In this document: piece after piece, positions 4,594 through 26,783 of the stretch
How positions within the stretch are numbered: position 1 is the first letter of the stretch
How the letters are laid out: each line of letters begins with the position of its first letter
NCBI RefSeq assembly: GCF_000023225.1
Contig: NC_013173.1
Coordinates: 2,916,501 to 2,980,500, forward strand
Source: Desulfomicrobium baculatum DSM 4028
GTDB taxonomy: Bacteria > Desulfobacterota > Desulfovibrionia > Desulfovibrionales > Desulfomicrobiaceae
Reading direction: 5' to 3'
Length of the DNA: 64,000 bases
Program-made: the position numbers and the translations under genes
Notes under the pieces: model-generated
Told to the model about the DNA's origin: nothing
Database searches by the model: none
What the model saw: only the letters and a program-made list of their open reading frames with translations

Positions 4594-5682
4594 CTACTCG
4601 CACGGAGAGCTAACAGTAAAACCAGCACGCACACACAACTCTTCCTTTTTCGCGTCTTCCAGATCAAACCGCACCATCTCGGCTACCAGTTCCTCAAAGC
4701 GGACCTTGGGGGTCCAGCCGAGTTGCTTTTTACCTTTGGCCGGATCGCCCAGCAGCGTCTCCACTTCCGTAGGCCTAAAATAGCGAGGGTCCACGGCCAC
4801 GACCGTTTTGCCATTGGCCGGATTGACGCCTTTCTCGTCCAGGCCTTCGCCTGAGAATTGAATGGTCATGCCCAGCTCCTTGGCAGCAGCCTGCACGAAA
4901 TCCCGCACGGAATGCTGTTCACCAGTGGCGATGACATAGTCGTCCGGCGAATCCTGCTGTAGCATGAGCCACTGCATCTCCACGTAATCCTTGGCGTGCC
5001 CCCAGTCGCGCAAGGCGTTCAGGTTGCCTAGGTGCAGGCAGTCCTGAAGGCCAAGATGGATACGGGCCAAGGCGCGGGTGATCTTGCGGGTAACGAAGGT
5101 CTCACCGCGAAGGGGTGATTCATGGTTGAAGAGGATGCCGTTGCACGCATACATGCCGTATGCCTCGCGATAATTGACCGCGATCCAGTAGGCGAAAAGC
5201 TTGGCGCAGGCATAGGGAGAGCGCGGATAAAAGGGCGTCTTCTCAGTCTGGGGGACTTCCTGCACCAGGCCAAACAGCTCGGAGGTGGAAGCCTGATAAA
5301 AACGCGTCTTCTTCTCCAGGCCCAGGATGCGGATAGCTTCAAGAATACGCAGCGTACCCAGACCATCCACGTTGGCCGTGTATTCTGGCGTATCAAAAGA
5401 CACCTGCACGTGAGACTGTGCAGCGAGGTTGTAAATCTCGTCAGGCTGGACCTGCTGGATGATGCGGATCAGGTTGGTGGCATCGGACAGATCGCCGTAA
5501 TGCAGAACAAAACGCCGTCCGGTCTCATGCGGATCCTGATAGAGATGATCGATGCGATCAGTGTTGAACAGCGATGCGCGGCGCTTGATGCCATGCACCT
5601 CATAGCCTTTCTCAAGAAGAAATTCCGCCAGATATGCGCCATCCTGACCTGTGATGCCTGTGATGAGAGCTACTTTATTCAA
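4594..5682 (-). CDS. gmd: GDP-mannose 4,6-dehydratase
   Basis: Converts GDP-mannose to GDP-4-keto-6-deoxymannose, the precursor of GDP-fucose and related sugars. The product carries the NAD(P) motif [27 protein letters not shown], the [11 protein letters not shown] segment, and the catalytic Tyr-x3-Lys in [14 protein letters not shown]. The start chosen is a TTG at 5682 (362 residues, normal length) because AAGGA lies 7 bp before it and the domain starts there; an upstream in-frame ATG at 5802 would add 40 unconserved residues. Upstream are a TGGCAC-type promoter-like site at 5822-5837 and a palindrome at 5922-5940. The whole upstream region is duplicated at 8276-8521. Confidence 0.95.
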
Positions 5683-5821
5683 TGGATAATCCTTGCGAAC
5701 AGTGAATGGAGAGCGGCGACCGGAAATAAACAACGGGATCAGGAGCCGACCCTTGTCAGCTGCCTGCCCTGAAGTCAGACACGTATCTTTCCGGATTTTC
5801 ACCTAAAAACCGAAAAGAGTT

Positions 5822-5837
5822 TACAAGTCCCGTGCCA
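5822..5837 (-). promoter_or_regulatory. Candidate RpoN-type promoter of gmd
   Basis: On the minus strand the sequence reads TGGCACGGGACTTGTA. The -24 box TGGCAC is perfect for sigma-54; the -12 box is TTGTA where TTGCA is expected, so one base of the usually invariant GC is changed. It is 139 bp before the chosen gmd start and 84 bp downstream of the palindrome at 5922-5940. The identical 16 bases occur upstream of xrtD. Confidence 0.45.
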
Positions 5838-5921
5838 TGAAGCCTTTTTACTCCACACGCCGAAAAGCGCCGCCAGCCGTAGCTTTTCTTGTTTTACGCA
5901 GTAGCGATGACGAGGACGAGG

Positions 5922-5940
5922 TGTCTGATTTAGCTGGACT
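5922..5940. promoter_or_regulatory. 19-bp palindrome, putative PrsR enhancer site (gmd)
   Basis: TGTCTGATTTAGCTGGACT fits the recurrent pattern NGTCYGA-N5-YNRGACN seen upstream of the exosortase-locus genes. Position relative to the TGGCAC box matches the xrtD case to within one base. Function as an activator-binding site is inferred. Confidence 0.45.
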
Positions 5941-6001
5941 GGATTGGGGGAGGCAGCGGCAAAGGTAGCGATGGAAGATTCAGAGATCTTGAGAACAAAA
6001 A

Positions 6002-6044
6002 ATCCCGGCATGAAAGAGAGGCAATCTCTCCCTCATGCCGGGAT
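6002..6044 (-). terminator. Rho-independent terminator of the first VPLPGA gene
   Basis: Two perfect 12-bp arms, ATCCCGGCATGA and TCATGCCGGGAT, enclose a 19-nt loop that can pair further. On the minus strand the stem is followed by a run of T residues (ATTTTTTGTTC). It lies 20 bp beyond the stop codon of the gene at 6065. Confidence 0.85.
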
Positions 6045-6064
6045 AAAGTCAGATAGAATGCAGC

Positions 6065-6595
6065 CTAGACGATCTGACGGCGACGCAGGCCGACAAGACC
6101 AAGCAGGCCCGAGCCGAGAAGGATTGCGGCACCGGGAACTGGGACGGAACTCGTGGCGGAAACAAAGCCAGTATACGCTCCTCCTGCGAAGGGAGCTTGA
6201 CCGGACCCAAAACCAGTCAAAGCTAGAAAATAGTCACCTGCAAGCAAATTAAACTGAGTTTTAATCAATGCGTCACCTGCAACCTCAAATATTTGAGTAA
6301 AACTATTTGATCCATTATCTTTAAATAAGTATCCTTCAAAATTATCTATGTCAGTATAAGGAGCAAAATTAAATGAAACAATTGCTGCTGCAAAATCTGA
6401 TGCTGGCAAAGTCATTGTATATTTATGATAAAATTCACCAATGATACCAGTCTGATAAATAGGGATTTCTGTTCCAAGTGTAATCGGGTTTAAATCAATA
6501 GGAGCTATTGTTGGCGCAGATGATGGATCAAAAGAAGCAAACGCACTTGAATAAGCCAAAATCAAACTCAACGTCAGAAACAAAATCTTTTTCAT
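6065..6595 (-). CDS. VPLPGA-CTERM exported protein (FxDxF-like)
   Basis: A 176-residue protein with a Sec signal peptide (MKKILFLTLSLILAYSSAFA) and a C-terminal exosortase sorting signal: VPVPGA at 151-156, a hydrophobic helix and the basic end LRRRQ. This tripartite end is the type processed by exosortase D, which is encoded at 23242-24792. The body contains NFEGYLF and LLAGDYFLALTG, which resembles small FxDxF-type PEP-CTERM proteins; that assignment is an inference. ATG at 6595 is preferred over 6649 because it opens the signal peptide and is preceded by GAGG. The body is AT-rich while the tag is GC-rich. Upstream lie a TGGCAC box and two copies of the 19-bp palindrome, downstream a strong terminator. 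Confidence 0.85.
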   Translation of the reverse strand: MKKILFLTLSLILAYSSAFASFDPSSAPTIAPIDLNPITLGTEIPIYQTGIIGEFYHKYTMTLPASDFAAAIVSFNFAPYTDIDNFEGYLFKDNGSNSFTQIFEVAGDALIKTQFNLLAGDYFLALTGFGSGQAPFAGGAYTGFVSATSSVPVPGAAILLGSGLLGLVGLRRRQIV

Positions 6596-6657
6596 TCTCA
6601 ACCTCGTACTATTAAGGGTTGCAATTTTATTGTTCAGCGCTTCAGTCACTGCCCATA

Positions 6658-6673
6658 TGAAAATACCGTGCCA
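6658..6673 (-). promoter_or_regulatory. Candidate RpoN-type promoter of the first VPLPGA gene
   Basis: Minus-strand sequence TGGCACGGTATTTTCA: perfect -24 box, and a -12 box TTTCA with one mismatch to TTGCA. It is 62 bp before the start codon. The following TATGG matches the TATGA that follows the similar site before the PilZ gene at 32149. Confidence 0.45.
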
Positions 6674-6744
6674 AAAATGAAAAATGTTTTATTTCGGATA
6701 GATACTAAAATTCGGTCCACCCTGACCAACTCCTAGCCTGGCCC

Positions 6745-6763
6745 AGTCCGATTCCCTCAGATA
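6745..6763. promoter_or_regulatory. 19-bp palindrome, putative PrsR enhancer site (proximal)
   Basis: AGTCCGATTCCCTCAGATA matches the NGTCYGA-N5-YNRGACN pattern with one mismatch in the right arm. It is 71 bp upstream of the TGGCAC box of the first VPLPGA gene. Confidence 0.4.
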
Positions 6764-6835
6764 CGCCTTGCCTGCCATGGCCGTGTAACCCCAAGCAATA
6801 TAAAGAGACCTGCACTTAGCTGTTGCAAAATCCAA

Positions 6836-6854
6836 TGTCTGATTCTTTCGGATG
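6836..6854. promoter_or_regulatory. 19-bp palindrome, putative PrsR enhancer site (distal)
   Basis: TGTCTGATTCTTTCGGATG matches the same pattern with one mismatch. With the copy at 6745-6763 it forms a pair, an arrangement common for RpoN activators. Confidence 0.4.
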
Positions 6855-6900
6855 GAAATTTTGCATTTCGGACCGTTCCATTTTCACAGATCGCGCCGAC

Positions 6901-7093
6901 CTGGGTCTCTGAGACCAAGAAGTGCCTTATTTTCTTATCTTTTTCTTCAAAAAAGGCCCTTTTTTCGACCTTAGAATGAGGTCATCAACTCAAAATCAGC
7001 CTATTTTTATAGCTAACACACAAATATCATTAATAAAAACTCGCGTTGCGGACTTTCAAAATCCCCACTCCAGCATGTTTCCGCAATCCTGTT
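6901..7093. mobile_element. RAYT-element derivative R1 (internally deleted, about 190 bp)
   Basis: Begins with the 13-bp palindrome GGTCTCTGAGACC (6904-6916) and continues through the same AT-rich 3' flank and last codons of the RAYT gene that are found at 7116-7304. The transposase body is absent. The block from CCCTTTTTTCGACCTTAGAA onwards is almost identical among all copies. Confidence 0.75.
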
Positions 7094-7115
7094 TTATCGC
7101 CTGGGTCTCTATCGC

Positions 7116-8272
7116 CTGGGTCTCTGAGACCAAGAAACCACCAATTTCATTCACTTTTTTCTCGAAAAAGGCCCTTTTTTCGACCTTAGAATGAGGTCAT
7201 CAACTCAAAATCAGCCTATTTTTATAGCTAACACACAAATATCATTAATAAAAACTCGCGTTGCGGACTTTCAAAATCCCCACTCCAGCATGTTTCCGCA
7301 ATCCTGCGCTCCGTACGGGGCCGGTTGTTCGCCGAGCATGTTGCTTTCGTCCTTCAGAATGGGCGCATATCCGCTCTGCCTGCGCACATGATCAACAAAC
7401 TTCACGCTCCCCACGGCCAGCTCCGCCGTCCACACATCGTCTCGGCACAGATGCCCGCGCTTGACCACGTTATCCACCCAGCCCGCATAATGCTCTGGAA
7501 ATGTCGGATCATCCGGCAAGCCTGCCAGCCTGGACAGCTCGGACAGGTTCACTGTCTTGTAACGCTGCTTGGGCTTCACGATCTCGTGGTAGCCGCCGTG
7601 CTTCCACTCCGAAGGATGCCTGACCACTCCGGCCCGAACCATGTTTGTGTCGATGTACAGCGAGCACCGAACCAGATGCTCTCCGCTCTCCACCGCCGTG
7701 GCATGGTAGCGCCGCTCCCAGAAGCTTCCCTTGCGGTCGCTCTTCTTGTTGTACGTTGCGGCCACCTTGGAACCCAGATCGCGCATCATCTCCGGTATCG
7801 CTTCCCTGTCTGTCGGGCTGACCACGAGCAGATGAACGTGGTTGGAAGTCACCGTGAAGTTCAGCACCGGCACCCGGTAACGGCCCTGATTTTCAAAGAG
7901 CGTGTCTGTCAGCAGCTTGCGGTACAATACCTGATTCAAGAGAAAGTCCCGATTGTGACAACGGGCAGTCAGATGCCAGACATAACCAGGCTCGAAAAAT
8001 CGTTGCGGGTAACCCATAAAGACCAGACCTGCGTTGATAGGCACTCCCATCGGCCCAACCGATAACCCATCGATCTAAGCCGCGCCTCGTCCAAGGCTTG
8101 CACGCTCATACTCCCCGTCATCGCTTGTGGAGAAACAAACTCTATGTGCACCGCCTGGATGAACTGCTACCAGCGCAAAAATCTTATTCCAATTGGACCT
8201 GCTACCCATTCTGTCTGAAAATCGCTGGCCTTCAAAAAAAAGTTAGGCCCCGCCCGGGTCTCTGAGACCTAG
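7116..8272. mobile_element. RAYT element E1, full length, bounded by 13-bp palindromes
   Basis: A 1.15-kb unit that starts and ends with the palindrome GGTCTCTGAGACC (7119-7131 and 8257-8269) and contains one complete RAYT transposase gene (7271-8017, minus strand). A half palindrome lies just outside at 7103-7110. Its 3' portion is repeated as short derivatives at 6901, 8556 and 8758 and as a longer truncated copy at 8964. Boundaries are inferred from the shared ends of these copies. Confidence 0.75.
7271..8017 (-). CDS. RAYT-family (Y1, REP-associated) transposase
   Basis: A 248-residue single-strand DNA transposase of the REP-associated tyrosine transposase group related to IS200/IS605. 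The metal-binding HUH motif appears as NHVHLLV, a Tyr-containing helix as AATYNKKSDRKGSFWERRYHAT, and the C-terminal part carries TNMVRAGVVRHPSEWKHGGYHE, all typical of RAYTs. ATG at 8017 (MGYPQRFFEPGYVWHLTARCHNRD) is chosen over the ATG at 8050 because family members begin at this point. RAYTs are known to be associated with short palindromic REP sequences, and this one is bracketed by GGTCTCTGAGACC palindromes. A copy of the gmd promoter module sits upstream. Confidence 0.9.
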   Translation of the reverse strand: MGYPQRFFEPGYVWHLTARCHNRDFLLNQVLYRKLLTDTLFENQGRYRVPVLNFTVTSNHVHLLVVSPTDREAIPEMMRDLGSKVAATYNKKSDRKGSFWERRYHATAVESGEHLVRCSLYIDTNMVRAGVVRHPSEWKHGGYHEIVKPKQRYKTVNLSELSRLAGLPDDPTFPEHYAGWVDNVVKRGHLCRDDVWTAELAVGSVKFVDHVRRQSGYAPILKDESNMLGEQPAPYGAQDCGNMLEWGF

Positions 8273-8275
8273 AAC

Positions 8276-8521
8276 AATCCTTGCGAACAGTGAGCGGTGA
8301 TCGGAAAAAGGCAACGGGATCAGGAGCTGGCCCCTGCCAGCACCCTGCCCTGAAGTCGGACACGTATCTTTCCGGATTTTCACCTAAAAACGCAAAAGAG
8401 TTTACAAGACCCGTGCCATGAAGCCTTTTTACTCCATACGCCGAAAAGCCCCGCCAGACGTGGCTTTTCTTGTTTTACCCGGTAGCGATGACGAGAATGG
8501 GATGTCTGATTTTGCTGGACA
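8276..8521. repeat. gmd upstream region, copy 2 (upstream of the RAYT gene)
   Basis: Close copy of 5688-5940, starting 6 bp after the palindrome that ends RAYT element E1. It retains a TGGCAC -24 box (8403-8418, minus strand, followed by TTGTA) and the 19-bp palindrome at 8503-8521, again 84 bp apart. It has no gmd gene behind it, only the transposase. Confidence 0.8.
8503..8521. promoter_or_regulatory. 19-bp palindrome in the duplicated gmd promoter module
   Basis: TGTCTGATTTTGCTGGACA, counterpart of 5922-5940, with a better-matching right arm. It would act, if at all, towards the RAYT gene. Confidence 0.35.
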
Positions 8522-8555
8522 GTCTTGGTTGGTGAATGGTGATTGGTGCCTATGC

Positions 8556-8746
8556 CTGGGTCTCTGAGACCAAGAACTTACCAATTTCATTCACTTTTTT
8601 CTCTAAAAAGGCCCTTTTTTCGACCTTAGAATGAGGTCATCAACCCAAAACCAGCCTATTTTTATAGCTAACACACAAATATCATTAATAAAAACTCGCG
8701 TTGCGGACTTTCAAAATCCCCACTCCAGCATGTTTCCGCAATCCTG
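8556..8746. mobile_element. RAYT-element derivative R3
   Basis: Palindrome GGTCTCTGAGACC at 8559-8571 followed by the conserved AT-rich flank and the last codons of the transposase gene, with the body of the gene missing. Nearly identical to R4 and to the left part of E2. Confidence 0.75.
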
Positions 8747-8757
8747 GCCTGGGTCGC

Positions 8758-8947
8758 CTGGGTCTCTGAGACCAAGAAACCACTAATTTCATTCACTTTT
8801 TTTTCAAAAAAGGCCTTTTTTTCGACCTTAGAATGAGGTCATCAACCCAAAACCAGCCTATTTTTATAGCTAACACACAAATATCATTAATAAAAACTCG
8901 CGTTGCGGACTTTCAAAATCCCCACTCCAGCATGTTTCCGCAATCCT
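8758..8947. mobile_element. RAYT-element derivative R4
   Basis: Palindrome at 8761-8773, preceded by a half copy (GGGTCGCCTGGGTC), then the same flank and the same last codons of the transposase. Tandem with R3 and E2. Confidence 0.75.
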
Positions 8948-8963
8948 GCGCTCCGTATCAAGT

Positions 8964-9594
8964 CTGGGTCTCTGAGACCAAGAACTTACCAATTTCATTC
9001 ACTTTTTTCTCTAAAAAGGCCCTTTTTTCGACCTTAGAATGAGGTCATCAACCCAAAACCAGCCTATTTTTATAGCTAACACACAAATATCATTAATAAA
9101 AACTCGCGTTGCGGACTTTCAAAATCCCCACTCCAGCATGTTTCCGCAATCCTGCGCTCCGTACGGGGCCGGTTGTTCGCCGAGCATGTTGCTTTCGTCC
9201 TTCAGAATGGGCGCATATCCGCTCTGCCTGCGCACATGATCAACAAACTTCACGCTCCCCACGGCCAGCTCCGCCGTCCACACATCGTCTCGGCACAGAT
9301 GCCCGCGCTTGACCACGTTATCCACCCAGCCCGCATAATGCTCTGGAAATGTCGGATCATCCGGCAAGCCTGCCAGCCTGGACAACTCGGACAGGTTCAC
9401 TGTCTTGTAACGCTGCTTGGGCTTCACGATCTCGTGATAGCCGCCGTGCTTCCACTCCGAAGGATGCCTGACCACTCCGGCCCGCAGCATGTTGGTGTCG
9501 ATGTACAGCGAGCAGCGCACCAAGTGCTCTCCGCTCTCCACCGCCGTCGCATGATAGCGCCGCTCCCAGACTTGCCTGGGTCTCTGAGACCAAG
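8964..9594. mobile_element. RAYT element E2, truncated
   Basis: Starts at the palindrome 8967-8979, contains the 3' flank and the 3' half of a transposase gene, and ends at the palindrome 9579-9591. The 5' half of the gene is missing exactly where the second palindrome joins, so the deletion used the palindrome as end point. Confidence 0.75.
9119..9571 (-). pseudogene. Truncated RAYT transposase (C-terminal 150 codons)
   Basis: The encoded segment from WERRYHATAVESGEHL to the stop CGNMLEWGF is nearly identical to the same part of the intact gene at 7271-8017 (one visible change is TNML for TNMV). The N-terminal half with the HUH motif is lost. An ORF reaching 9637 exists only because the frame runs through the palindrome into unrelated duplicated DNA. 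Confidence 0.85.
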
Positions 9595-9598
9595 AACA

Positions 9599-9770
9599 GC
9601 CTGGTCGGCATCCGAAGAAAACTCGCCGCATAAGCAATACCAGAACGCAAAGGCGGAGCCACCCTCCGCCTTTTTACTGCCCCGTCGCCATCAATCCAAA
9701 TTAAGTTTTGCTGCCTGTAGCTCAGCCTTCTCAGCCACCATCCCCGCCGCGCCCGCTGTCTCCGTTCCTG
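9599..9770 (+). pseudogene. Duplicated 3' end of the second VPLPGA gene with its terminator
   Basis: This 172-bp stretch is almost identical to 12247-12418. It encodes the last ten codons of the VPLPGA gene (LVGIRRKLAA then TAA at 9631-9633), followed by the same Rho-independent terminator (9652-9675) and downstream DNA. It adjoins a RAYT palindrome on the left and the 12-bp tandem array on the right. Confidence 0.85.
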
Positions 9771-10072
9771 CTTCCGTCGCTGGTTCTGTCGCTGCCTCCA
9801 TCGCTGCCTCCATCGCTGCCTCCATCGCTGCCTCCATCGCTGCCTCCGTCGCTGCCTCCGTCGCTGCCTCCGTCGCTGCCTCCGTCGTTGCCTCCATCGC
9901 TGCCTCCGTCGTTGCCTCCGTCGTTGCCTCCGTCGTTGCCTCCGTCGCTGCCTCCGTCGCTGCCTCCGTCGCTGCCTCCATCGCTGCCTCCGTCGCTGCC
10001 TCCGTCGTTGCCTCCATCGCTGCCTCCGTCGTTGCCTCCGTCGCTGCCTCCGTCGCTGCCTCTCCCGCTGCC
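9771..10072. repeat. 12-bp tandem array, about 25 units
   Basis: Units of GCTGCCTCCGTC, with variation almost only at two positions (GTC/ATC and GCT/GTT). Because the unit is a multiple of three and lacks stops, frames on both strands stay open and translate to repeats such as SVAA, SLPP and TEAA; none of these has a credible gene around it. Degenerate relatives of the unit occur in at least six other intergenic places in the window. Confidence 0.9.
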
Positions 10073-10080
10073 ATCATTAA

Positions 10081-10096
10081 TGGTGCAATCTTTGCT
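10081..10096 (+). promoter_or_regulatory. Candidate sigma-54 promoter of the second VPLPGA gene
   Basis: TGGTGCAATCTTTGCT has GG and GC spaced by exactly 10 bp and a perfect TTGCT -12 box. It lies between the 12-bp array and the 19-bp palindrome at 10117-10135, 205 bp before the start codon. Confidence 0.4.
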
Positions 10097-10116
10097 TTAT
10101 GGCATCGTCCGTCCCG

Positions 10117-10135
10117 TATCCGATCCGATCAGACT
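10117..10135. promoter_or_regulatory. 19-bp palindrome-like site upstream of the second VPLPGA gene
   Basis: TATCCGATCCGATCAGACT matches NGTCYGA-N5-YNRGACN with one mismatch in the left arm. It is 20 bp downstream of the candidate -12 box, similar to the arrangement before the third VPLPGA gene. Confidence 0.35.
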
Positions 10136-10301
10136 CAGCGAGGAACAGGTTGTAAATGATCGATCCCATGCAGAGCATAACCGGCCAACCGGACATGCAT
10201 CCTGGGCGCAGACACTTCCCTCGCCGCATGCGGAGGGAAACGGCGAGAGGAAATTCCTGTTGCTGACTTCAAACCTGACAACGAAGCAGAGAGGCTTCAC
10301 C

Positions 10302-12281
10302 ATGAAATCAAAAATGCGTTGTATGTTTGCATTTGCTTTTGTATTTTTTCTGATTTCATGCCCCACATGGGCAGCAGATAGTTCCACATCATGGATCGGC
10401 ACTGGGGACACATCCTGGAGCAATTCAATGAATTGGGACAATGGCGTGCCCGTAACCGGCTCCAGGGTCGTACTATCTCTGCCGGATGCCAATAACGGCG
10501 ATTATACAGTCGTCTATGACGTTCTCGGTGATGACTTTCCAAAACTCACAGATATCATCATAAATGGATCCACCGACTTTCAGCCGATACTCCAACTCCA
10601 AAAAGGTACTGATTCTTCCCCGCTCTATTTCGAAAGCGCATCCATGCTCGTCGGCGATACCGGAAAAGGGAGCTTGGTTCATGAATACGGGACGGTCGAA
10701 ACGCAAAGCCTAATCTTGGGCGACGATACCGATAGCGTCGGCCGATACGCCATTTCGGGTGAATTCAAGCTTCCTGATGAAATCGAAGCTCCCGCAGAGT
10801 GGGGGCCTGACCAGACAGACTCATTTCTCGGAGTACTCGGCAATCTCCTGGTCGGTAATGCCGGGGATGGGGCATTCTCGCAACAAGGCGGAATAGTTAT
10901 CGTTAAAGACGACCTGATCCTTGGATCAACTTTCACCGGCGAGGGCTCATACACCCTTGCCAACGGCGTGCTGTGGACGGGCAACACCGTTGTGGGCGGC
11001 GACGGAACCGGACTTTTCACACAATCTGGCGGACTCCACCTCATCGGTTTCGACCCGTTCAACTTAACGCCCATCGAGAGCGAAGAGCACACCCTTGTCG
11101 TCAACGCAGGAAGTTACGACATGAGCGACGGCAGACTCCTTGTCTCGTCCGAGATCATCGGGAACGGAGGTCAGTTCCTTCAAAGCGACGGTGAGCATCA
11201 CGTCTACAAGAATATGGTGGTCGGGAGTGCTTCCGCAGGTAGCATCACCCTGAGTGACCAGGCGAAACTCGTTGTTGAGTCTGACATCCTCCTGGGTCTC
11301 AACGGAGGAGAAGGATCCGTGAGCTTGGACAACACGGCCTCACTCAGGGTCAACGGAAACATGCTCCTAGGAATGCGCGAACCTGGAGGGTCCGAGTCAG
11401 GCAATGGCATAGTGATTCAAGGCAGTGAACAAACATCGGCGGAAGGCGGCCCTTCAGTTTCCGCAGGCAGTGTGATCCTTGGCAACGACGCGACAACCAC
11501 CGGCGCGTACACCCTGCATAGCGGTACCTTCACTGCCGGTGGCGTGGTTGTCGGCCAGGGCGGGTCAGGCACTTTCAGGCAGACAGGCGGTGTCGCCGCC
11601 ATCCGCGGCAACCTGGAACTTGGGGCGGTGTTCGACAGCATCGGGACCTATGAACTCTCCAGCGGATCGCTCGACGTCTCGGGTCTTGAACACATCGGCG
11701 GCAAAGGTACCGCGACATTCACCCAGACCGGCGGGTCCAACACTGCGGGCAGCATGACAGTAGGGACAGGCAGCAACTACTCTTTCCAAGGCGGGTCACT
11801 GACAGTCACAGATACCATCAACAACTACGGCCTGTTCCAGGGTGCTGGCGAAATCAATGTCGAGACATTCAACAACGATGGCACGCTGGCACCAGGGAAT
11901 TCGCCTGGAACGCTTTCCATTACAGGCGATTTCAATCAGGGCAGCGAAGGTATCCTAGCCATCGAACTCGGCGGCACGCAACCAAGCCTGTTCGACACTC
12001 TGAACATCATGGGGGAAGCAAATCTTGCCGGAACCCTGCTCATCGAATCATGGGACAACTTCATGCCAAAAGCCGGCGACTCGTTCACCATCCTCACAGC
12101 GCAAAACCTCTCGGGCCAGTTCCTTATCGACAGTAAAATCACCGGCATCAACTGGATCGCCAGCTACCGCGACAACAAGGTCAGCCTGACCGCCAGTTCC
12201 GTCCCTCTCCCCGGCGCAGCGCTACTTCTCGCCCCGGTCCTCCTCGGCCTGGTAGGCTTCCGAAGAAAACTCGCCGCATAA
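10302..12281 (+). CDS. Large VPLPGA-CTERM surface protein with glycine-rich beta repeats
   Basis: A 659-residue exported protein: signal peptide (MKSKMRCMFAFAFVFFLISC, then PTWA), a long body of repeated units around patterns like GxGGxGTFxQTGG and GxYxLSSGSL that suggest a beta-helical, autotransporter-like fold, and a C-terminal VPLPGA tag with hydrophobic helix and FRRK end. The start at 10302 is supported by GAGAGG just upstream; an open frame extending to 9708 is only read-through of the tandem array. The end segment ('GDFNQGSEGILAIELGG') is also seen in autotransporter-type and PEP-CTERM surface proteins. Likely substrate of XrtD and an extracellular matrix or adhesion protein. Followed by a strong terminator. 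Confidence 0.88.
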   Translation: MKSKMRCMFAFAFVFFLISCPTWAADSSTSWIGTGDTSWSNSMNWDNGVPVTGSRVVLSLPDANNGDYTVVYDVLGDDFPKLTDIIINGSTDFQPILQLQKGTDSSPLYFESASMLVGDTGKGSLVHEYGTVETQSLILGDDTDSVGRYAISGEFKLPDEIEAPAEWGPDQTDSFLGVLGNLLVGNAGDGAFSQQGGIVIVKDDLILGSTFTGEGSYTLANGVLWTGNTVVGGDGTGLFTQSGGLHLIGFDPFNLTPIESEEHTLVVNAGSYDMSDGRLLVSSEIIGNGGQFLQSDGEHHVYKNMVVGSASAGSITLSDQAKLVVESDILLGLNGGEGSVSLDNTASLRVNGNMLLGMREPGGSESGNGIVIQGSEQTSAEGGPSVSAGSVILGNDATTTGAYTLHSGTFTAGGVVVGQGGSGTFRQTGGVAAIRGNLELGAVFDSIGTYELSSGSLDVSGLEHIGGKGTATFTQTGGSNTAGSMTVGTGSNYSFQGGSLTVTDTINNYGLFQGAGEINVETFNNDGTLAPGNSPGTLSITGDFNQGSEGILAIELGGTQPSLFDTLNIMGEANLAGTLLIESWDNFMPKAGDSFTILTAQNLSGQFLIDSKITGINWIASYRDNKVSLTASSVPLPGAALLLAPVLLGLVGFRRKLAA

Positions 12282-12299
12282 GCAATACCAGAACGCAAA

Positions 12300-12323
12300 G
12301 GCGGAGCCACCCTCCGCCTTTTT
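12300..12323 (+). terminator. Rho-independent terminator of the second VPLPGA gene
   Basis: GGCGGAG, 5-nt loop, CTCCGCC, then five T residues. It starts 19 bp after the stop codon. An identical copy is at 9652-9675 in the duplicated 3' end. Confidence 0.9.
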
Positions 12324-12418
12324 ACTGCCCCGTCGCCATCAATCCAAATTAAGTTTTGCTGCCTGTAGCTCAGCCTTCTCAGCCACCATCCCCGCCGCGC
12401 CCGCTGTCTCCGTTCCTG

Positions 12419-12650
12419 TTTCGTGCATGGATCTCTGTCGTGCATGGGTCTCTGAGACAAATAACACCTCAACTTCATTCATTTTTTTCTCTAAAAAGGC
12501 CCTTTTCTCGACCTCAAAATGGTGATTGGTGAGTAGTGACTGGGGTAAGCCGGGCCTTGGAGACCCAATGTCGTATACGTACTTGACCGAATTTCCACAC
12601 AAAGCGGAAGCTGGTAACTCCGAATGCCTGGGTCTCTGAGACCAATAACA
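12419..12650. repeat. Decayed RAYT-element fragments with two palindromes
   Basis: Contains GGTCTCTGAGACA at 12447-12459 followed by a fragment of the RAYT 3' flank (CATTCATTTTTTTCTCTAAA), and an intact GGTCTCTGAGACC at 12631-12643. A half copy lies at 12427. The rest of this gap shows no gene. Confidence 0.6.
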
Positions 12651-12697
12651 CACTGGACTCATCCCCGACTCCAACTTATAAATAAAGGGTATGAAAA

Positions 12698-12967
12698 ATG
12701 CCGACCATTAGCATGTTTTACGGAATCCTCGTAATGATCATGTACGAAGACTATGGGCGACATAACCTCCCGCATATCCACGTACGCTATGCGGGACACA
12801 AGGCATCGATATGCATTGACGATGGCGTCCTCCTCGCAGGGGACTTCCCCGCCAAGCAACTGAAACTTGTGCAGGCATGGATCGAAATTCACAAAGACGA
12901 ACTGCTGGCAAACTGGGAACTGGCCGTAGCCGGAGAAGAACTTTTCAACATAGCCCCGCTTCGCTGA
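12698..12967 (+). CDS. DUF4160 protein
   Basis: An 89-residue protein with the DUF4160 pattern: ISMFYGILVMIMYEDYGRHNLPHIHVRYAGHKASI, where the HNLPHIHV histidine cluster is characteristic, and the end LLANWELAVAGEELFNIAPL. DUF4160 and DUF2442 genes are commonly found as adjacent pairs and are regarded as a possible toxin-antitoxin type module; the biochemical role is unknown. It is followed after a few base pairs by the DUF2442 gene. A purine-rich AAGGGT precedes the ATG. Confidence 0.88.
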   Translation: MPTISMFYGILVMIMYEDYGRHNLPHIHVRYAGHKASICIDDGVLLAGDFPAKQLKLVQAWIEIHKDELLANWELAVAGEELFNIAPLR

Positions 12968-12983
12968 CAATTGGATGGTAACT

Positions 12984-13241
12984 ATGGAAAAACAGCTGCT
13001 GGATGTAGTCGCCGTCGAGCCCCGGCCCGACCATAGCCTCTATCTCACTTTCGAGAACGGTGAAAAACGCATTTTCGATATGCGGCATCTTCTGACAAAA
13101 CCTCCTTTTCACCGCCTCAAGGAATCGCCGTTCTTCATGCTTGCTAAAGTAGGCTACGGAACAGTGATCTGGCCCGGCAACATCGATATCGCGCCGGAAA
13201 CCCTCTATGATCAATCACGACCTGCAGGCAGCGGTATCTGA
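12984..13241 (+). CDS. DUF2442 protein
   Basis: An 85-residue protein (or 88 if the ATG at 12975 is used) with the DUF2442 core LYLTFENGEKRIFDMRHLL and the end GTVIWPGNIDIAPETLY. Partner of the DUF4160 gene 16 bp upstream; the two are probably translated from one mRNA. No experimentally assigned function for the family is known to me. Its stop is followed at once by the heptamer-repeat region. Confidence 0.88.
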   Translation: MEKQLLDVVAVEPRPDHSLYLTFENGEKRIFDMRHLLTKPPFHRLKESPFFMLAKVGYGTVIWPGNIDIAPETLYDQSRPAGSGI

Positions 13242-13660
13242 ATAGTGAATGGTGATTGGGAAGAAATATTATTAGTGATCGGTGAACAGTGAATGGTGAT
13301 TGGGAAGAGATATTATTAGTGATCGGTGAACAGTGAATGGTGATTGGAAAGAGTTTTTGTATTTTTTAAATTATCAAACGATAATTTAATTTTCTTACCC
13401 ATTCACTATTCACTATTCACCATTCACCACTCACTACTCACAATTCACTATTCGCTTAGCATAATTCAATACTCATTTCTTCGCATTGTTTCTCATACGT
13501 TCGTATGAGATGGTGAATGGTGAACAGTGAATGGTGATTGGAAATAGTTTTTGTATTTTTTAAATTATCAAACGATAATTTAATTTTCTTACCCATTCAC
13601 TATTCACAATTCACTATTCACCAACCACTATTCACCAATCACTATTCACCAATAAAAAAC
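13242..13660. repeat. Heptamer-type repeat region with duplicated palindromic core
   Basis: Arrays of GTGAATGGTGATTGG-like units on one side and their complement (CCATTCACTATTCAC-like) on the other flank an AT-rich core with the hairpin AAATTATC-AAAC-GATAATTT. The core with its flanks occurs twice, near 13326-13430 and 13514-13620. Between the copies is a perfect hairpin TCTCATACG-TT-CGTATGAGA (13491-13510). No gene is seen; an ORF starting at 13538 is just the open frame before the real start at 13661. Confidence 0.8.
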
Positions 13661-14008
13661 ATGGACCACAAACAACTAGACGCTTGGAAATTGAGCATCG
13701 ATTTGACCATTGACATTTACAACATATCCAAGAACTTCCCACGAGAAGAAGTTTACGCGTTGACTCAGCAAATACGAAGGGCCGCTACGAGCATTCCAAG
13801 CAATATTGCAGAAGGAGCAGCTCGAAAATCCAACAAGGAATTTTCGCAATTTCTACACATCGCCCTTGGGTCTCTTGCTGAAGTAGAGACACAGCTTTTT
13901 ATCGCTCAAAGACTCAACTATACTGATCAGTACTCGAAATTTTCCTCTCAAATCACTTCAATAAGGAAGCTGATTCTTGGATTGATACGGTATCTTAGTG
14001 GTGAATAG
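13661..14008 (+). CDS. Four-helix-bundle protein (23S rRNA intervening-sequence family)
   Basis: A 115-residue protein matching the four-helix-bundle (S23, 23S rRNA IVP) family: MDHKQLDAWKLSIDLTIDIYNISKNFP, then YALTQQIRRAATSIPSNIAEGAARKS, the strongest signature, and a C-terminal LGSLAEVETQLFIAQRL. Such genes are frequently scattered in accessory regions and their function is unsettled. There is no rRNA nearby. The start follows directly on the repeat region and has no clear ribosome site. Confidence 0.9.
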   Translation: MDHKQLDAWKLSIDLTIDIYNISKNFPREEVYALTQQIRRAATSIPSNIAEGAARKSNKEFSQFLHIALGSLAEVETQLFIAQRLNYTDQYSKFSSQITSIRKLILGLIRYLSGE

Positions 14009-14210
14009 TGATTGGTGAATGGTGAATGGAAAAGGCAGCGACCGGAGAACGACGGAGGCAGCGACAATGACAACGACAAAGGGAAAGGCAATCCAAATGG
14101 GGGTGTCTGTCGATGCCCCCATCGATGGTTCCGTCGCTGGTTCTATCGATGCCTCCGTCGCTGATTCTATCGCTGGTTCTATCGATGCCTCCATCTCTGC
14201 TGTGCCGGCC
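14009..14210. repeat. Composite dispersed repeat, copy C1
   Basis: Order of parts: heptamer units (GTGAATGGTGAATGG), a purine-rich block with AAAAGGCAGCGACCGGAGAA, GGTGTCTGTCGATG, then degenerate 12-bp units (TCGCTGGTTCTA). The same order recurs at 14418 and 15063. The last part is read as codons of the XRE gene at 14097. Confidence 0.75.
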
Positions 14211-14417
14211 GAGGACGTATTCCACGACTCTACACCGGGCAAGGTCCTGTCCGGCGCACGGGGTCTGCGCGGGTTGACCCAGGCTGCCCTGGCCGCCGCC
14301 ATCGGCGTCCACAAATCACATATCTCCGGCATGGAGAGAGACGTCCGCCCCATCGGCAAAGCAATGGCGAAAAAGCTTGGCCACGCGCTGGAAATGAATT
14401 GGCGGATTTTTTTATAG
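14097..14417 (+). CDS. XRE-family HTH protein with repeat-encoded N-terminus
   Basis: A 106-residue DNA-binding protein. The C-terminal 60 residues form a Cro/CI-type helix-turn-helix: KVLSGARGLRGLTQAALAAAIGVHKSHISGMERDVRPIG. The first 35-40 residues (APIDGSVAGSIDASVADSIA and onward) are translated from the 12-bp dispersed repeat. The true start is uncertain: ATG at 14097 gives this protein, while a start inside the HTH would exclude the repeat. No toxin gene is adjacent, so it is either a lone regulator or an orphan antitoxin. Confidence 0.7.
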   Translation: MGVSVDAPIDGSVAGSIDASVADSIAGSIDASISAVPAEDVFHDSTPGKVLSGARGLRGLTQAALAAAIGVHKSHISGMERDVRPIGKAMAKKLGHALEMNWRIFL

Positions 14418-14590
14418 TGAATGGTGAATGATGATTGGTGAATGGAAAAGGCAACGACCGGAGAACGACGGAAGCAGCGGGAAAGACAATCAAGAAGGTG
14501 GTGTCTGTCGATGATTCCTTCGCTGATTATATCGCTGCCGCCGTCACCGGTTCTGTCGATGGTCTTGGCTCCTGGGCCTCTGAGACCAAA
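14418..14590. repeat. Composite dispersed repeat, copy C2
   Basis: Same order as C1: heptamers, AAAAGGCAACGACCGGAGAA, GGTGTCTGTCGATG, degenerate 12-bp units, ending at a variant RAYT palindrome GGCCTCTGAGACC (14575-14587). A further variant palindrome is at 14674-14686. Confidence 0.7.
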
Positions 14591-14732
14591 AACACCTGCC
14601 TTTGCCCTGTCTTTGCCCTGCCTTTGCCCTATCCATTCACGATTCACTAATCACCATTCACAACAAACTGCATGGATCTCTCAGACCAAGAACTCACGTT
14701 ATCAACTATCTCGACTATCACTAGGAGGCCAT

Positions 14733-15062
14733 ATGCAGAACAGAACCCGCAAGCCAAGCCATCCCGGAGGCATTTTGCTCCGGATGTACCTGGAACCGTT
14801 GAAGCTGACCGTCACGGCAGTAGCTGGACACTTGGGCGTTTCTCGCAAGCATCTTTCCAACCTGGTCAACGAAAAGGTCGGCATCACCCCGGACATGGCC
14901 ATGAGGCTTTCCCGTGCCTTCGCCACTTCGCCGGATCTGTGGATGAACATGCAGAAGACGCGGGATCTATGGGAAGCGGAACACGAGCGCACCGGCTGGG
15001 AAGCGGTGACACCTTTGCCCGGCGTGCAAGATGTTAGCGGCGTTGATGCGGCAGCTGATTAG
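14733..15062 (+). CDS. higA: HigA-family antitoxin (orphan)
   Basis: A 109-residue HigA/VapI-type protein with an XRE helix-turn-helix: KPSHPGGILLRMYLEPLKLTVTAVAGHLGVSRKHLSNLVNEK, then AMRLSRAFATSPDLWMNMQ, which is diagnostic of HigA. The start is fixed by a strong AGGAGG (14723-14728) 4 bp before the ATG at 14733; a frame reaching 14442 is read-through of repeat DNA. HigB toxins are normally encoded directly upstream, but here the upstream DNA is repeat C2, so the toxin appears to be lost or absent. Confidence 0.9.
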   Translation: MQNRTRKPSHPGGILLRMYLEPLKLTVTAVAGHLGVSRKHLSNLVNEKVGITPDMAMRLSRAFATSPDLWMNMQKTRDLWEAEHERTGWEAVTPLPGVQDVSGVDAAAD

Positions 15063-15235
15063 TGATTGGTGAATGGTGAATAGTGAATGGTGATTAGAAA
15101 TGGCAACGACTGAGGCAACGGGGAAAGACATCCAGAAGGTGGTGTCTGTCAATGGCTCCGTCGCTGATTCTATCGCTGCCCTGTCGCTGATTCTTTCGCT
15201 GCCCTGTCGTTGGCTCTGTCGTTACCTCCGAGTGA
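15063..15235. repeat. Composite dispersed repeat, copy C3
   Basis: Heptamers (GTGAATGGTGAATAGTGAA), a purine-rich block, GGTGTCTGTCAATGG and degenerate 12-bp units (TCGCTGATTCTA, TCGCTGCCCTG). Lies between higA and the HicB-type gene. Confidence 0.7.
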
Positions 15236-25637: not shown

Positions 25638-26783
25638 TCACCCCCACAGCCATTTCAAAAAACCACCGGACTTTTGCGGTTTCTTTTCCGCAGGGGCGCG
25701 CTGCTCTTCGGCAGGCATTTCAATGGGGATGCTGACCACGCCTTGCGCGGGGGCGGCTTTGGTGTCCGTTAGAGGCGCGGCCTGCGCGGCATTGACCCGC
25801 TCCTTCAGCGCCCCAAGCTCCAGGGTCAGCAGCTGCACATCCGTGCCCCAGGCCGCAAAGCGCTCTTCCATGACCGTGAGGCGGCGTTCCAGGGCGGACA
25901 GGCGTTCCTCCAGATCCGGCGTGACCTCCATTCCGGCCGAGGGCTCGGTGTCCGCCGTGGTCTGGATGCCGTTCGAATGCAGCATGGGCGCCATTTGCCG
26001 GGCCACGTCCTGCACCACCTCGGGGCCGATGACGGGCAACTCGTCGGCGAAGCCGTGCACCAGGGCCGCGTCGCAGAGAATGTTGATCAGGCGCGGCACC
26101 CCGGCCGAGAGCGCGTGGATGGCTTCCATGGCCTCGGGCGTGAACAGGAGCGGATTGCCCCCGGCATGGGCCAGGCGGAAGCAGATGTAGGCTTTGGCCT
26201 CGTCGAGTTCCAGAGAGGGCAGGTGAAAGGTCGAGGTGATGCGCTGGGCCAGCTGGGTCAGGGTCGGGTCGGCCAGCTTGCGGCGCAGCTCCGGCTGCCC
26301 GACCAGGACCACCTGCAAGAGCGGCCGGCTGTTGCCCTGCAGGTTGGAGAGCAGGCGCACCTCCTCCAGGGCGTCGCGGGACAGGTTCTGGGCCTCGTCC
26401 ACGATGACGATGGCGTGCCGCCCCTGGCTGAAGCGGTCAATGAGATACTCGTTGAGCATGGCCAGGTTCGCGGCCTTGTCGCCGCCCGGCTCCCCGGCCT
26501 CGAACTCACGGATGATGAGCCGCAGCAGTTCCTCGCCCGTGACATTGGTATTGAAGACCAGAGCCACGTCCACGGCCTTCTCGATGCGGCCCAACAAATA
26601 GCGGATGAGCGTGGTCTTGCCCGTGCCGATGCCACCGGTGAGGACCACGAACCCGGTCCCCTCCCCCAGGCCGTACTTGAGGTGCGCGAAAGCCAGCTTG
26701 TGCTTCTCGCTCATGTACAGGTAGCCCGGATTGGGCACGATGGTGAAGGGCCGCTCGCGTAGGCCGTAGAAATTTTCGTACAT
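25638..26783 (-). CDS. Exosortase-system AAA ATPase (ExeA/GspA-like)
   Basis: A 381-residue P-loop ATPase. Residues 1-260 are the ExeA/GspA-type domain: MYENFYGLRERPFTIVPNPGYLYMSE start, Walker A GGIGTGKTT at 50-58, Walker B IVIVDEAQNLS, sensor region RITSTFHLPSL. It matches the putative secretion ATPase usually found in exosortase/exopolysaccharide loci. The C-terminal 120 residues contain a coiled-coil stretch (EERLSALERRLTVMEERFAA) and a low-complexity basic end. It is 47 bp downstream of the CpsD-like gene on the same strand. Role in polysaccharide export is inferred from context. Confidence 0.88.
   Translation of the reverse strand: MYENFYGLRERPFTIVPNPGYLYMSEKHKLAFAHLKYGLGEGTGFVVLTGGIGTGKTTLIRYLLGRIEKAVDVALVFNTNVTGEELLRLIIREFEAGEPGGDKAANLAMLNEYLIDRFSQGRHAIVIVDEAQNLSRDALEEVRLLSNLQGNSRPLLQVVLVGQPELRRKLADPTLTQLAQRITSTFHLPSLELDEAKAYICFRLAHAGGNPLLFTPEAMEAIHALSAGVPRLINILCDAALVHGFADELPVIGPEVVQDVARQMAPMLHSNGIQTTADTEPSAGMEVTPDLEERLSALERRLTVMEERFAAWGTDVQLLTLELGALKERVNAAQAAPLTDTKAAPAQGVVSIPIEMPAEEQRAPAEKKPQKSGGFLKWLWG

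Follow-up and report, generated by a model that had tools for sequence, protein, structure and literature searches.

To our knowledge, how RAYTs multiply REPs is still unproven. REPtrons, tandem REP clusters with flanks, captured rayt 3' ends and a rolling-circle model have all been published already. TnpAREP proteins that have been characterised cleave REPs in single-stranded form, on the 5' or the 3' side of the stem and mostly between C and T (C/T); they bond to the 5' end and join it to another 3'-OH (PMC8266576). A 2010 study reported four BIMEs in which the 3' end of a rayt gene had been captured between REPs, and proposed a rolling-circle model for REP amplification (PMC2817692). Tandem REPIN/REP clusters contain flanking DNA of variable length, often with short unrepeated spacers (PMC3116915, PMC3733652).

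Here we describe a REPtron-like locus of divergent type, with one intact RAYT and its cognate palindrome, in a window of 64,000 nucleotides (the whole stretch of DNA analysed) from Desulfomicrobium baculatum DSM 4028. Like the REPtrons in the accessible sections of PMC2817692, PMC6006769 and PMC8266576, it has one full-length copy of a gene for a TnpAREP-type Y1/HUH protein, palindromes that flank this gene and cluster nearby, and rayt 3' ends captured between palindromes. The sequence-only reading had set such retention of the gene end against usual RAYTs, whose REPs would lack transposase sequence; the 2010 report removes this contrast. Unlike the REPs and BIMEs in the same sections, the palindromes here are direct rather than inverted, have no GT[AG]G foot and often travel with a conserved 3' flank of 150-200 bp; canonical REPs number in the hundreds, whereas this genome has 15 copies. 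Tandem REPIN/REP clusters likewise consist of tandem units with variable-length flanks and short unrepeated spacers, but their units are mostly based on inverted REP pairs or GTAG REPs, and the accessible sections (PMC3116915, PMC3733652) contain no mention of half-palindrome stutters at the joints. Neither the GGTCTCTGAGACC palindrome nor such stutters are named in the REP/RAYT literature searched (mostly open-access articles, accessible in part and exclusive of supplements), and the main texts of PMC6006769, PMC3733652 and PMC2817692 contain no word starting with "Desulfo". The direct-only orientation, the non-GT[AG]G foot, the long travelling 3' flank and the half-palindrome joints are distinct here. 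Joints with a partial palindrome and a repeated foot may record intermediate steps of REP multiplication, and a family this small and low in copy number could allow the rolling-circle proposal to be tested.

The RAYT open reading frame (7271-8050, minus strand) is intact and encodes 259 aa. The protein matched Y1_Tnp in Pfam (1.6e-11) and scored 79.3 bits with the NCBIfam RAYT model NF047646, just under the cut-off of 80, but only 25 bits with the IS200 model NF033573 (cut-off 55). H71, H73 and Y132 do not vary among seven aligned sequences, and the HVH motif (71-73) and Y132 (in YIDTN) are likely to be the catalytic residues. Among PDB folds, the AlphaFold2 model (pLDDT 61) was closest to 4er8, a RAYT in complex with a REP hairpin; the IS608 and ISDra2 transposases came next. 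Taken together, the NF047646 score, the HVH/YIDTN motifs and the best fold match identify the gene as a RAYT, as had been proposed from the sequence alone: it encodes a Y1 transposase with the HUH and Y motifs, nearer to TnpAREP than to IS200. A search of the PDB by sequence gave no hit up to E 0.001, and Rfam gave no match in window 5700-13200 up to E 0.5. The features of the locus are as follows.

6904-7118 (215 bp), minus strand: short unit U1; 188 bp homologous to the complete unit (93.1%), then filler and a 15-bp stutter
7119-8269, minus strand: complete unit (3' palindrome, 3' flank, RAYT gene, 5' palindrome), ~1.15 kb
7271-8050, minus strand: RAYT gene, Y1/HUH transposase, 259 aa; HVH at 71-73, Y132 in YIDTN
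8257-8269, plus strand: 5'-side palindrome of the RAYT gene, with flanks CCCG..TAGAAC
8270-8530, no strand assigned: module 5' of the RAYT gene, with further copies at 5688-5947 (86%) and in G002, G007 and G010
8559-8760 (202 bp), minus strand: short unit U3; 188 bp homologous to the complete unit (96.8%)
8761-8966 (206 bp), minus strand: short unit U4; 197 bp homologous (97.0%)
8967-9578 (612 bp), minus strand: half-length unit U5; 604 bp homologous (97.2%)
9579-9591, plus strand: final array palindrome, then AAGAACAG and a copy, starting at 9599, of the end of a PEP-CTERM-type gene
12447-12521, plus strand: 75-bp remnant made up of a degenerate palindrome (1 mismatch) and 62 bp of the 3' flank seen in the array
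12631-12643, plus strand: eighth exact palindrome, upstream of a small ORF (12698-12967)

The array contains seven exact copies of GGTCTCTGAGACC, at 6904, 7119, 8257, 8559, 8761, 8967 and 9579, which share one orientation (read from the central T) and are spaced by 215, 1138, 302, 202, 206 and 612 bp. At up to 2 mismatches the window has 23 matches, most palindromes being counted on both strands; 100 shuffles averaged 1.46 and never attained 23. The sequence-only reading had seen these sites delimit a complete 1.15-kb element, a half-length truncated copy and three short copies; this arrangement was confirmed, the short copies measuring 202-215 bp, with the truncated units U1, U3, U4 and U5 beside the full element in the same array. 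The layout of the complete unit is also found in G002, where window 7113-8528 was matched at 90.6%.

The homologous stretches listed above correspond to the first 188 (U1), 188 (U3), 197 (U4) and 604 bp (U5) of the complete unit (7119-8269). As also noticed from the letters, U1, U3 and U4 keep the 3' flank and the last codons, namely 152 bp, the stop codon and 11-14 codons; the gene copy in U5 starts near residue 104 and has lost the HUH motif but kept Y132. U3 and U5 are identical over 188 bp and over exactly 3 further bases (CTG) to the left of the palindrome, indicating that CTG is the left edge of the unit. The right ends of the truncated units vary (188, 188, 197 and 604 bp); U1 and U3 end at the same gene position (gcaatcctg), and the 188 bp of U3 are followed by the stutter gcctgGGTC/gcctg. 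Alignment of the junctions thus yielded a fixed left edge, CTG before the palindrome, but variable right ends. The short units had been called internal-deletion derivatives, which does not fit units that share one end with the full unit and vary at the other; a tandem pair in G002, whose unit continues beyond the element, also disfavours it. The palindrome at 8257 has flanks unlike those of the others (mostly CCTG..AAGAA), indicating that the short units lack the element's 5' end. The 302-bp stretch 8257-8558 contains the module upstream of the RAYT gene; this module is found again elsewhere and seems to belong to the RAYT unit. Its 86% copy at 5688-5947 is found on the 5' side of a GDP-mannose dehydratase-like gene, a position it also has in G010.

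In its own genome, CTGGGTCTCTGAGACCAAGA occurs at 15 distinct places at up to 3 mismatches in 20 (18 rows, 3 of which repeat a site on the opposite strand); 11 of these places lie in the window and 4 outside it, and the reversed-pattern control gave 0. Genome mapping, proposed earlier as a check, thus found further copies. Among 16 genus genomes, including its own, there are 50 exact palindromes on both strands, versus 6 with the pattern reversed; exact copies are missing from 6 of the 16 genomes. The genus set used below comprises 56 sites, all 50 exact ones and 6 with one mismatch in the loci analysed; two one-mismatch L080 sites (own genome, other context) were excluded from an original 58, and some further degenerate sites in the genus lie outside the set. 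The order-level set outside the genus consists of 21 sites in nine chosen loci, with further sites in the order left out.

The left foot of the palindrome is CTG at 44 of the 56 genus sites and CCA at 10 of the 21 order-level sites, and a search of both strands up to 6 bases from the stem found GT[AG]G at no site of either set (0/56 and 0/21). Adjacent palindromes within 1500 bp form 27 direct and 0 inverted pairs in the genus loci, and 6 direct and 0 inverted adjacent pairs in the nine order-level loci. Taken in isolation, the hairpin is weak and does not clearly outdo shuffled sequences (z -0.8 to -1.2). Two types of element follow the palindrome: type A is the RAYT 3' flank, and type B is a different sequence of ~200 bp. 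The type-B elements in L083, L084, L095, L099 and L100 are ~200 bp long and end near GGTATGTA or GTCAGTA, and no RAYT was seen beside them in the stretches around these five loci.

A close RAYT is present in 4 of the 16 genus genomes: its own, G002 (92%), G007 (91%) and G004 (88%, interrupted by a contig end). G000 (its own), G002 and G007 have a single full-length copy each, and G013 has a 34-residue relic. Exact palindromes occur without a close full RAYT in G001, G008, G009, G010, G013 and G014. The palindrome stands on both sides of the RAYT gene in G000, G002 and G024, the last a member of another family of the order with a 56%-identical RAYT; in G007 it is on the 3' side, and the 5' one is degenerate. 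A search of genome contigs, in a set that may omit records near the window's genome, gave two distant relatives (42-43%). An apparent C-terminal bias of gene fragments in the order was dropped after inspection by eye, as N-terminal fragments occur too.

We compared the arrangements between species. G010 is syntenic with the window, with matches to 4618-5956 and 14696-15178, but the array is missing: between the matches to 5956 and 12575, where the window has 5957-12574, G010 has 877 bp without similarity. The context of the RAYT differs between G000 and G002. In G002 the RAYT unit comes after a truncated copy of an ExeA-like gene. Elsewhere the sequence of this gene continues beyond the truncation point: in the window (an intact ORF at 25638-26783), in another G002 copy, and also in G007, G010 and G001. 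Considered as a filled site of the ExeA-like gene, the G002 locus was rejected as a clean insertion, since the gene copy ends close to the joint and the rest of the gene is not found beyond it. A search for filled and empty sites had been suggested; with dissimilar intervening DNA in G010 and a RAYT abutting a cut-off gene copy in G002, no clean pair for the whole RAYT element was found at these two loci. TnpB-like and IS200-type TnpA-like ORFs (L085 4759-6455, as read from the ORFs) adjoin the G002 RAYT locus.

Smaller units differ as well. G002 C66 matches window 12518-13251 at 95%, and the adjoining element remnants differ: in G002, the palindrome, 22 bp and the 5' module (69% alike) without the gene; in the window, 75 bp including the palindrome. 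Where G014 C21 has one type-B element, G002 C46 has two in tandem, alike at 98.1% over 314 bp. The G002 unit continues for ~110 bp after its similarity to other type-B elements has ended, and its tandem joint reads GTTG/GGTC/GGCCTG-palindrome. In this pair only the right flank is common, the left flanks being unlike and the G014 palindrome having 2 mismatches, so that the difference may be a gain in G002 or a loss in G014. L078, L095 and L081 share elements and differ on their left sides, but were not used as a before/after pair, since their flank order varies from species to species. The sequence comparison indicates that arrangements change between species, against one frozen old duplication. 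The earlier reading had named as the outcome against mobility no further copies and an identical arrangement in all relatives; copies lie elsewhere in the genome, and the arrangements differ.

Many joints show a stutter, in which the foot and a partial palindrome precede the same foot and the whole palindrome, as at 7119, where tatcgcctgGGTCTC is directly followed by tatcgcctgGGTCTCTGAGACC; a 17-bp stutter lies to the left of the degenerate palindrome at 12447. Exact tandem duplications with a period of 5-60 touch 12 of the 56 genus palindromes, in 10 distinct arrays; the corresponding figures are 35/2726 for random sites and 4/403 for other stem-6 hairpins. The 10 arrays include one mirror image (L079) and two whole-palindrome units; tandem units of 27 and 40 bp occur in G014 and G007. 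Under a stricter rule, with the foot and partial palindrome to the left, there are 13 events at 9 of the 56 genus sites, two of the events (L089 3715) repeating stutters counted for 3688; the controls gave 48/6756 random sites, 5/677 other stem-6 hairpins and 2/371 GC-rich hairpins (both strands). Because the pattern was already known when the rule was drawn up, and because sites of one genome are related, these figures describe rather than prove the excess, and Fisher values for the counts overstate independence. Outside the genus, the rule found 0 of 21 sites in the nine order-level loci. TGGGTC occurs within 40 bases to the left of the palindrome at 9 of the 56 genus sites, versus 0-3 of 56 in twelve other 40-base windows, and at 1 of the 21 order-level sites.

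At full extension, 6 of the 13 stutters stop after base 4 or 6 of the palindrome, that is, at C/T, and 7 elsewhere; the position of the six fits TnpAREP cutting, which is suggestive only. Those left edges that were inspected by eye are mostly off C/T. The stutter ends cluster in the 5' arm and near the hairpin apex. Stutters also occur in genomes without a close RAYT, at 1 of 6 sites in G001 and 1 of 9 in G014, suggesting that the RAYT may be dispensable or was lost later.

The CTG left edge, the variable right ends, the G002/G014 pair and the excess of stutters over controls point to local copying of DNA anchored at the foot, as do the six stutter ends at C/T and the palindromes on both sides of the 56%-identical RAYT of G024. 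We put at about 0.5 the probability that nicking by the RAYT, followed by short synthesis, generated these foot-anchored tandem duplications. We infer the nick site, the strand, the role of the enzyme and the synthesis step in the following way. The left foot of the palindrome (CTG with a few further bases) would be a restart point for local copying. The RAYT, an HUH enzyme that bonds the 5' end and frees a 3'-OH, would nick single-stranded DNA at the palindrome, and synthesis from the 3'-OH would copy the palindrome, its 3' flank and a variable stretch of the gene or neighbouring DNA. The held 5' end would then be joined to the new 3' end, so that every round would add one tandem unit whose left edge is fixed and whose right end varies, and very short rounds would leave half-palindrome stutters. 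If TnpAREP cutting applies here, nicking, extension and rejoining would be expected to give fixed starts, variable ends and aborted units that stop in the palindrome. More tentatively, and as a rather doubtful extension, the order may have a separate RAYT lineage that uses a short direct-repeat, non-GTAG palindrome as its restart point; aborted rolling-circle rounds, anchored at the foot, would write tandem units of any length (half a palindrome up to 600 bp) that include gene or neighbouring sequence, and the enzyme's strand transfer would have left the half-palindrome stutters as its footprint.

Several results weaken the copying by the RAYT: the lack of stutters at the 21 sites outside the genus, the left edges and 7 of 13 ends off C/T, the relatedness of the sites, the two repeated events and the limits of the G002/G014 pair, besides a weak hairpin and stutter ends near the apex, as plain polymerase slippage predicts. 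Slippage at the hairpin is the main rival, in which polymerase stalling and template switching at the palindrome make the units and the presence of the RAYT is coincidental. The clustering of ends in the 5' arm and apex, the mirror-image case in L079, the stutters in G001 and G014, and CCTG on both sides of the U3 joint as possible microhomology all agree with it, as does the absence of stutters at order-level sites, some of whose genomes have RAYTs. We nevertheless consider it somewhat unlikely, as other stem-6 hairpins in the same loci (5/677) and GC-rich ones (2/371) rarely stutter, the palindrome's own hairpin is not unusually stable, and the foot is reused by long units too.

IS200/IS605 elements end in palindromes that lie on one strand at both sides of the gene. 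The RAYT gene is flanked in the same manner and its product has a related fold, so that a real transposon of this kind, with direct palindromes on both gene sides and MITE-like derivatives arising by internal deletion, has to be weighed; the different RAYT contexts in G000 and G002 and the gene-less remnant of G002 C66 would suit it. It is nonetheless improbable in our view, given a single full-length copy in each of G000, G002 and G007, window short units without the flanks of the gene's 5'-side palindrome, and no empty site in the loci compared; unlike IS200/IS605, the family is of low copy number, its protein reaches 25 bits with NF033573, and excision or insertion of the whole unit is not evidenced. 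Ordinary old tandem duplication with unequal crossing-over, lacking any palindrome specificity, was already disfavoured and is very hard to sustain: the units are indeed in tandem and 93-97% alike to the full unit, near a 98.3% duplication of other sequence, but every unit begins at the palindrome foot, copies are dispersed and arrangements differ between species.

That nearby 176-bp duplication (9599-9774 and 12247-12422) comprises the PEP-CTERM-type gene end and its downstream region, one copy directly to the right of the array's last palindrome and the other directly to the left of the palindrome at 12447. A 12-bp tandem array (CGCTGCCTCCGT) of ~26 copies occupies 9754-10062, and similar arrays are found in L079 and G010 L150. 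The stretch 12500-15230 contains small genes with, as read from the ORFs, a toxin-antitoxin look, separated by heptamer tracts such as TGGTGAA/ATTCACT. At 14675-14710, a degenerate palindrome with AAGAACTCAC abuts the last codons of a small gene that is apparently longer in G010, where its counterpart, read by eye, extends up to about 11551 in L150.
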